Positions 9,201 through 12,200 of a stretch of 64,000 bases of DNA are shown piece by piece (position 1 is the first letter of the stretch; the number at the start of each line of letters is the position of its first letter). This stretch comes from Branchiostoma lanceolatum (lineage: Eukaryota; Chordata; Leptocardii; Amphioxiformes; Branchiostomatidae). Below the pieces are notes generated by a model. The model worked only from the letters and a program-made list of their open reading frames with translations, did no database searches and was not told the DNA's origin. The translations under genes were made by a program, and so were the position numbers. The stretch is taken from assembly GCF_035083965.1 (NCBI RefSeq), contig NC_089738.1, positions 11,248,734 through 11,312,733 of the forward strand, in the 5' to 3' direction.

Positions 9201-12200
9201 GGGGCACCACCGCACAGTGTTACATGCCTTGGGTGATCATAGTGCACAAGTAAGCAGACTGAGGTGGATTAAATGACCACAAGTTGCTTTATATATGTAT
9301 GTCAATTTCATACACTTCTACAGTCCACCTTGAAACAGAAAGAAGTAAGCAAAAACATATTTCTAAACTTTCTACATGTACCATTTTATTTCTGAGAAAG
9401 CCACACAGCTGCCTGCCTTGAAAACCTGCAAGGATGAGACTAACTTAGGCTGCAACGGGAAACATTCTCTCCACTGTGACATTACCTCCCTCCCATCAGG
9501 ACTTGTCCATATACCCATCAGTACAGAGCCAAACTCTCCCTGCCCCCCTCCCCACACACATACATGTACACACCATAACATTACCTCCTTCCCATCAGGA
9601 CTTGTCCATACACCCATCAGTACAGAGCCAAACTCTCCCTGCCCCCCTCCCCACACACATACATGTACACACCATAACATTACCTCCTTCCCATCAGGAC
9701 TTGTCCATACACCCATCAGTACAGAACCAAACTCTCCCTGCCCCCCTCCCCACACACATACATGTACACACTATAACATTACCTCCTTCCCATCAGGACT
9801 TGTCCATACACCCATCAGTACAGAACCAAACTCTCCCTGCCCCCCTCCCCACACACATACATGTACACACCATAACATTACCTCCTTCCCATCAGGACTT
9901 GTCCATACACCCATCAGTACAGAGCCAAACTCTCCCTGCCCCCCTCCCCACACACATACATGTCACTATAACATTACCTCCTTCCCATCAGGACTTGTCC
10001 ATATACCCATCAGTACAGAACCAAACTCTCCCTGCCCCCCTCCCCACACACATACATGTACACACTATAACATTACCTCCTTCCCATCAGGACTTGTCCA
10101 TACACCCATCAGTACAGAGCCAAACTCTCCCTGCCCCCCTCCCCACACACATACATGTACACACTATAACATTACCTCCTTCCCATCAGGACTTGTCCAT
10201 ACACCCATCAGTACAGAGCCAAACTCTCCCTGCCCCCCTCCCCACACACATACATGTACACACTATAACATTACCTCCTTCCCATCAGGACTTGTCCATA
10301 TACCCATCAGAACAGAGCCAAACTCTCCCTGCCCCCCTCCCCACACACATACATGTACACACTATAACATTACCTCCTTCCCATCAGGACTTGTCCATAC
10401 ACCCATCAGTACAGAGCCAAACTCTCCCTGCCCCAGCTCACGCCCCAGCTGAAGTGACTCCCTGGGGATGAGCTTCTGCGCCTTGTCGGGACCGTCCTCC
10501 ACTCGAACCACGGGCGGGCGCTGCGGTTTGGGCTGCAGGGGTGGCGGAGAAGCTTCGCTCGGAATCGGCACTGGTTTCTGTTGTGGAGTCAAATCACAAA
10601 GCAATATTAACAAGAACACACACTTGGTGTTTGAGATGTTAAGCCTACTTAAGGATACAGTTCTTAAAATGTAACTTTGGTCAACAACTTGTCAGCATCG
10701 AGTACAGGTATTTATCTGTGTGTGGATGGTGTTCAGCACCAGAGACAGGTATACTTGCCTGTGTATGGATGGTGTTCAGCACCAGGGACAGGTATACTTG
10801 CCTGTGTATGGATGGTGTTCAGCACCAGGGACAGGTATACTTGCCTGTGTATGGATGGTGTTCAGCACCAGGGACAGGTATACTTGCCTGTGTATGGATG
10901 ATGTTTAGCACCAGGGACAGGTATACTTGCCTGTGTAAGGATGGTGCTCAGCACCAGGGACAGGTATACTTGCCTGTGTATGGATGATGTTTAGCACCAG
11001 GGACAGGCATGTTTACCTGTGTGTGTATTCAGTAAAGGTTATGAGAACTGACCTTTTTTGGCTGCAGTTCCCTGCGCGGGCCAGGAGGGGGCGGTGCTTC
11101 CTGTTGCGGCAACTCCTCGTCTACACTGCAGCCGGTGGTCATCTTCAGGTCAATGTGACTGTCCACATCTAGAGGTCAACAACAACAGCGTGTTACATTC
11201 CATCCTCAGTCAAACCTGGCCAGGTAACCACCTGCAGTCACAAGCCAAATTGAAACAGTCCCGTCCAATTGAACATGGTTAAAAACCCTCGGCTAAGCAA
11301 CCGAATATCTTACCCAAACAGCAACCACTTTTATGCTGTCCCCAGGGGGCATTCACTCCCCAGTCAACAATCAAAACTGATTGAAAGCAGCACCCAGCCC
11401 AGCAGCAGCAATTTGAAATTGCTGATTTCTGCGGTGCCGTCGGCCCAATGGGTGTCGGACTCAGAAACAAAATAGGTCCCGGGTTCGATACTCACCATGC
11501 TCTGACGTTGTTCCCTTGGGAAAGGCATTTTCCACGACCTTTCCAGACCGTGGAGTGACACCCACAGAGCCTGTTTGGCTGATCTGTCAAAAAAGTGTGC
11601 CAAAAAACACCCACGGATTTGGTGCAGCAATGTGCCAACATCTGCACATTTGCACCCAAGGGCAGTAAAAATTGAGAATCAAACTACCAGACCCATTCAT
11701 TCCAAGCAATGGCCTTTTCCTGTCATTCTATCTTTCAACCTAGCCTTTATTACGGGTGCTGAGACCAGATTAGACTGAATTATGTCCCCCGTTGTAAAGC
11801 AATTTTCACCATTTCTCAGGTATGTCGCATTTAACAAAGTATCACCTCACACTGTACCTTCATGTCTTCCAGGGTTTTTTTATCATAAAGCTACACAAGC
11901 CAGACCTTACATCTGCTTGGAGACTATAGCCCATTTCCATGGTATAGACCAATCCTGACTGTCCATCACAATTAGCAGTTAGACCATGTCAATTAGCGAT
12001 TTGACCAATCAGAGAGTGGCAGCATGAGCAGGGCTATGGGATTGGTCTGTTGTGATGAGCTCACCTGGCCCAGTAGGCTGGCTAGAGGGCCACTTGACAG
12101 GTTTGGGAGGCAGGGGACCAGGTGGAGGCATGTCAGGCTCACCACTGAAATATAAAGTCAACAAAAAAGTTGATTAGCAAAACTGCCATGCAGCATCACA

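Follow-up and report, generated by a model that had tools for sequence, protein, structure and literature searches.

Tandem arrays whose units run across an exon-intron boundary have been described in several amphioxus genes and named 'mirages' (PMC3087553, PMC3902484). The alcohol dehydrogenase gene Adh3 carries one in both Branchiostoma floridae and Branchiostoma lanceolatum, with units of 10-72 bp, and mirages are also reported in the globin genes BflGb9 and BflGb6, the latter with 150-160 bp units that are 81-100% identical and number six and three on two haplotypes (PMC3087553). Two assemblies differ in the copy number of the 60-bp and 108-bp units of PGBD5 (2 versus 7 and 3 versus 6), and troponin C is listed as a further example (PMC3902484). 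A splice signal is found in many, not all, units of the published arrays, and both reports state that mirages do not disturb regular splicing (PMC3087553, PMC3902484); according to the PGBD5 paper, those of Adh and troponin C yield no aberrant mRNAs (PMC3902484). A model for intron gain from mirages has been proposed (PMC3087553), and in human segmentally duplicated genes, tandem repeats that cross such boundaries are reported to give rise to new introns (PMC2812944). The repeated granulin modules of B. floridae are a different phenomenon (PMC4527844).

A 64,000-nucleotide stretch of the B. lanceolatum genome (the window) contains an array of this kind in a tyrosine kinase gene. As in the published mirages, the units lie head to tail across an exon-intron boundary of a protein-coding gene and repeat its splice signal: each full unit joins 61 nt from the 3' end of exon 10 to 38 nt of intron 10, and the donor 9-mer GAG|GTAATG is identical in all ten units. 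The unit length falls within the 10-160 bp range given for amphioxus (PMC3087553, PMC3902484). The ten units exceed the highest count in the comparison, which is seven, for PGBD5, with Adh3 and troponin C standing outside it (PMC3902484). The units are also more alike than those of BflGb6, with a mean identity of 98.4% over the nine full units against 81-100% (PMC3087553). The host differs in being a kinase gene. The human duplicated-gene repeats likewise cross exon-intron boundaries; for those, transcripts with new introns are reported (PMC2812944), whereas the kinase array is known from DNA and its repeat acceptors look unusable. The array thus adds to the known amphioxus mirages, and its design has already been described. 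No report of this particular array came up in literature searches that did not pair the kinase name with amphioxus. It brings a kinase gene to the set of amphioxus genes with boundary minisatellites, which have been put forward as raw material for introns (PMC3087553). It is of value less as a novel type of system, which it is not, than as an experiment of nature on how a donor is chosen.

The host gene was modelled manually on the basis of open frames and GT-AG splice sites, with exons numbered from the one carrying the ATG. The features on which the argument depends are as follows.

6292 to 16577, minus strand: complete coding region of the kinase gene, with 15 exons encoding 855 aa
10374 to 10577, minus strand: exon 10, 204 nt, starting and ending in phase 0; the final 61 nt make up the exon portion of unit 1
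8743 to 8889, minus strand: exon 11, which joins exon 10 within the glycine-rich loop region

The 15 coding exons, read from 16577 down to 6292, form a single open frame of 855 residues. Pfam searches of the spliced model give the domain order SH2-ankyrin-SH2-tyrosine kinase. SH2 is matched in two stretches, best at residues 79-156 and again by SH2_1 at 357-433, the latter below its cut-off, with ankyrin repeats at about 222-340 and the tyrosine kinase domain at 582-836. The SHARK/HTK16 tyrosine kinases, as defined in PMC9486129, likewise have ankyrin repeats flanked by two SH2 domains, followed by the kinase domain, and by this predicted domain architecture the host gene is assigned to the SHARK/HTK16 type. 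The original prediction had placed the array at exon 10 of a tyrosine kinase gene, in the glycine-rich loop, and both the gene model and Pfam bear this out. In a search against solved structures the top match by E-value is an EGFR construct, aligned in two stretches and with minor gaps close to the loop. It is followed by ACK1, against which the join between exons 10 and 11 in the glycine-rich loop region aligns gaplessly, and one copy of the repeated exon segment is therefore enough for a normal kinase. A separate tandem repeat (127 bp, about 10 copies, 86% matches) lies upstream of the kinase start codon at 17498-18795.

The array itself and its donors are located as follows.

9472 to 10434, minus strand: tandem array of ten units, each combining the end of exon 10 with the start of intron 10
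10368 to 10376, minus strand: donor 1, GAG|GTAATG, with the first G of its GT at 10373
9480 to 10277, minus strand: donors 2-10, the same 9-mer as donor 1
10274, 10175, 10076, 9977, 9881, 9782, 9683, 9584 and 9485, minus strand: first G of the GT of donors 2-10
10362 to 10364, minus strand: stop codon TAG, read in the exon 10 frame and lying in the intronic portion of unit 1; kept if any of donors 2-10 is used

Tandem Repeats Finder reports a period of 99 with 9.8 copies and 97% matches at 9472-10434. The array had been predicted at 9479-10434; it is present, but slightly longer. It holds ten head-to-tail units, the nine predicted extra copies of the 3' part of exon 10 with its piece of intron among them, starting (in minus-strand reading) at 10434, 10335, 10236, 10137, 10038, 9942, 9843, 9744, 9645 and 9546. 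The spacing is 99 bp in eight of nine cases and 96 bp in one; these two lengths had also been noted. The 61-nt exon part consists of GGGGCAG and a 54-nt coding block. Nine units are full, and the tenth matches the others for 14 intronic bases before giving way to different intron sequence. The predicted intact GTAATG donor is present in 10 of 10 units, and the predicted AG ahead of the 54-nt block is a CAG directly before it in all nine extra units, in each of which the block is stop-free, in phase 0 and followed by GT. The array thus exists as described, and the details first given for it were nearly right. The multiple-of-three unit lengths, which had been remarked on, carry little information because they amount to one base period (with a chance of about one in three) and one 3-nt deletion. 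Since the unit is a multiple of three and has no stops in the frames concerned, the plus strand carries two long open frames antisense to the array (9367-10452 and 9449-10471, 361 and 340 aa from stop to stop), which a gene finder could take for a gene.

In a local search, the best downstream copy of the exon 10 donor region scored 120, while none of 20 shuffles scored above 24. The gene's 13 other donors and 14 acceptors, searched over 1.5 kb on each side, scored 13-24, and no strong boundary copy was found near any of them in that range. Shuffle maxima across the boundary tests ran from 17 to 27; three scores topped their own shuffle maximum by 1-3 points, and the exon 10 donor region exceeded its own by 96. 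No source was found in the rest of the window for the 24-nt intron stretch specific to the unit, its best matches there being an 11-base exact stretch and a TG-rich one of 20 bases. A 99-bp seed dropped at random into the kinase gene has a 19% chance of covering a boundary and a 10% chance of covering a donor. Arrays with a period of at least 15 fill about 6% of the window, a figure that covers 13 arrays merged by hand from the Tandem Repeats Finder list and leaves out a 42-bp, period-15 row at 23254-23295 (a GGAA-type microsatellite). Given the seed chances and the lack of another strong boundary copy, no special cause is needed beyond frequent minisatellites and the tolerance of splicing. 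Placing the gene's three arrays whole at random gave a boundary-crossing figure of 0.985, which was set aside in favour of the seed figures as it mostly reflects the 963-bp length.

Variation among the units bears on how they came to be alike. The mean difference over the nine full units is 1.6% per site, and the exon part varies at least as much as the intron part (0.0182 against 0.0134 differences per site). Differences in the 54-nt block had been described as mostly synonymous; this does not hold, as only two of the four variant codons are synonymous and two are nonsynonymous (V/I in units 2, 5 and 10, and K/R in unit 10). With a weighted neutral synonymous opportunity of 25%, the probability of at least two synonymous changes in four is 0.26. 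Coding constraint on the copies was rejected on these grounds, although with four variant codons the test is a weak one. Units 1, 3 and 4 are identical, as are units 6 and 9. All four combinations of variants occur in 2 of 10 variant-column pairs (columns 19/35 and 19/72), which suggests exchange between units, though repeated mutation could also produce them. Adjacent units are no more alike than random pairs (P 0.62, with low power from five variant columns), and simple stepwise slippage is therefore not visible at this power. In mirages the units would be homogenised within the cluster with an edge unit left out; the identical inner units, the four-combination column pairs and the divergent tenth unit fit this picture, but unit 1, at the other edge, shows no divergence. 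Because unit 1, which holds the functional exon part, is identical to two inner units, the real exon seems to have been involved in the recent spread or to have been its source. Homogenisation and constraint had both been entertained as reasons for the near-identity of the copies. Turnover appears to fit better, whereas constraint is without support (0.0182 against 0.0134; 2 of 10 column pairs). Tandem Repeats Finder also proposes a 492-bp period, but a higher-order repeat of five units was rejected: the mean number of differences at lag 5 (1.75) lies above those at lags 1-3 (1.63, 1.29 and 1.0), though below those at lags 4, 6 and 7 (2.2, 2.0 and 2.5), and there is no clear five-unit period.

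The same pattern bears on whether the array is an error of assembly, with one or far fewer copies at the true locus. PGBD5 arrays do differ in copy number between amphioxus assemblies (2 versus 7 and 3 versus 6; PMC3902484), and the draft genome misassembled one globin array (PMC3087553). However, the mix of variants across the kinase units is non-periodic, unlike that of a block repeated in error, and the PGBD5 repeats were confirmed by both original and new read data (PMC3902484). We consider an artefact quite unlikely.

The ten donors differ sharply in their modelled outcome. Donor 1 alone yields the full 855-aa protein, while use of any of donors 2-10 retains the TAG in the intron part of unit 1 and leads in nine of nine cases to a stop at residue 612, in the initial part of the kinase domain. 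Donors 2-10 thus supply the predicted series of potential 5' splice sites that follows the true one. With ten identical donors about 99 nt apart in near-identical surroundings, the locus amounts to a ten-fold natural version of a two-donor competition in which only the first donor keeps the protein. Donor 1 is of middling predicted strength, its U1 pairing energy of -6.9 kcal/mol ranking ninth of 14. Intron 9 is 475 nt and intron 10, the longest of the 14 introns, is 1484 nt; exon 10 would be recognised across the exon because the introns flanking it have these lengths.

Published work on donor competition offers a guide to the likely choice. In exon-definition minigenes with 365-nt introns, the upstream of two identical strong donors was used exclusively; when both were weakened, smaller exons kept the upstream preference and larger constructs skipped the exon (PMC9225289). 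Human alternative-donor events overall favour the downstream donor in about 60% of cases, and an upstream preference emerges once the strengths are near equal (PMC9225289). It is likely that donor 1 is used here and that the array leaves with the intron, and some exon skipping or use of decoy donors could still occur at the array.

We propose that the locus is probably a near-neutral amphioxus mirage at the exon 10/intron 10 boundary of a SHARK-type kinase gene, with donor 1 chosen through exon definition. The minisatellite unit happens to straddle this boundary, and unequal exchange or conversion among the units would have let the array grow and would keep its units alike. The pre-mRNA holds ten identical 5' splice sites. 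Exon 10 would be recognised across the exon, so that the donor nearest its own acceptor (donor 1, giving the 204-nt exon) would win and the array would be removed along with intron 10 during splicing.

The extra donors might instead act as regulatory decoys. The nine would take U1 snRNP and a share of the transcripts, giving truncated, decay-prone mRNAs with copy number tuning kinase output, or U1 bound to the array would shield the long intron from early polyadenylation. The identity of donors 2-10 to donor 1, the same early stop behind all nine and the length of intron 10 (the longest of 14, at 1484 nt) are consistent with this. Against it, the copies give no sign of constraint, published mirages are said not to disturb splicing (PMC3087553, PMC3902484), and when identical donors competed in exon-defined minigenes, splicing did not divide between them but used the upstream one exclusively (PMC9225289). 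On balance we regard a regulatory role of this kind as unlikely. A more elaborate form, in which the ten donors bind U1 snRNP and the fast-changing minisatellite acts as a length-variable splicing rheostat, setting the amount of the SHARK-type kinase through the stop at residue 612 or through protection of the longest intron from polyadenylation, seems very unlikely. The array has a G4Hunter maximum of 2.16 over units 1-2. A role for a quadruplex or RNA fold was rejected, as the quadruplex option of ViennaRNA left the fold unchanged at -52.7.

Inclusion of the units in frame is conceivable from their anatomy, since CAG before and GT after a stop-free, phase-0 block of 54 nt in all nine extra units would allow each to be spliced as an exon adding 18 residues to the glycine-rich loop, a step towards new exons or introns. 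The intron-gain model for mirages (PMC3087553) and the human boundary repeats that create introns (PMC2812944) lend this some precedent. However, the pyrimidine share before the repeat CAG is 0.18 in nine of nine units, compared with 0.53-0.76 in the 14 inferred acceptors, so the objection first raised from the G-rich lead stands. In addition, 42-45 nt separate the repeat CAG from the first base of the donor before it. Use of the units as 18-residue exons is unlikely because of these two properties of the repeat acceptors, and an extra unit would break the conserved loop that the exon 10-exon 11 join, gapless against ACK1, preserves. Inclusion as a route to new exons is thus highly improbable, and removal of the whole array with intron 10, as proposed above, remains the preferred reading.

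Other repeats in the window touch on an annotated microRNA family. Rfam mir-2060 is matched at 10753-10846, 10925-11018 and 8469-8554. These matches sit in 43-bp tandem arrays at 10716-11022 and 8397-8575, on the plus strand in introns 9 and 11, antisense to the kinase gene. When shifted by 43, the Rfam consensus agrees with itself in 47 of 51 positions, against 11-19 at the other offsets tested (38-49), and the annotated amphioxus miRNA family may therefore be a minisatellite dimer. To our knowledge, the mir-2060 family occurs in amphioxus only. The Branchiostoma belcheri mature sequence bbe-miR-2060c-3p (PMC5650284) has an exact copy at 8482-8501, and with up to three mismatches it matches the window 13 times, against 0.01 expected from shuffles. 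The Rfam hits and this exact copy speak strongly for a Branchiostoma origin of the window. Near-copies also occur away from the kinase gene, at 20432-20451 on the minus strand (one mismatch) and 56600-56619 on the plus strand (three mismatches), and the 43-bp family may therefore be dispersed. A term search of the main text of PMC2728532 did not return '2060'.

Two further kinds of element were recorded. A U5 snRNA match at 19415-19538 on the minus strand (Rfam RF00020, 50.8 bits against a cut-off of 40) marks a candidate gene or pseudogene. Tandem repeats of 165, 15 and 144 bp at 3956-4409, 61839-61911 and 63226-63502, respectively, all have periods that are multiples of three, lie in long open frames and are probably coding repeats of other genes.
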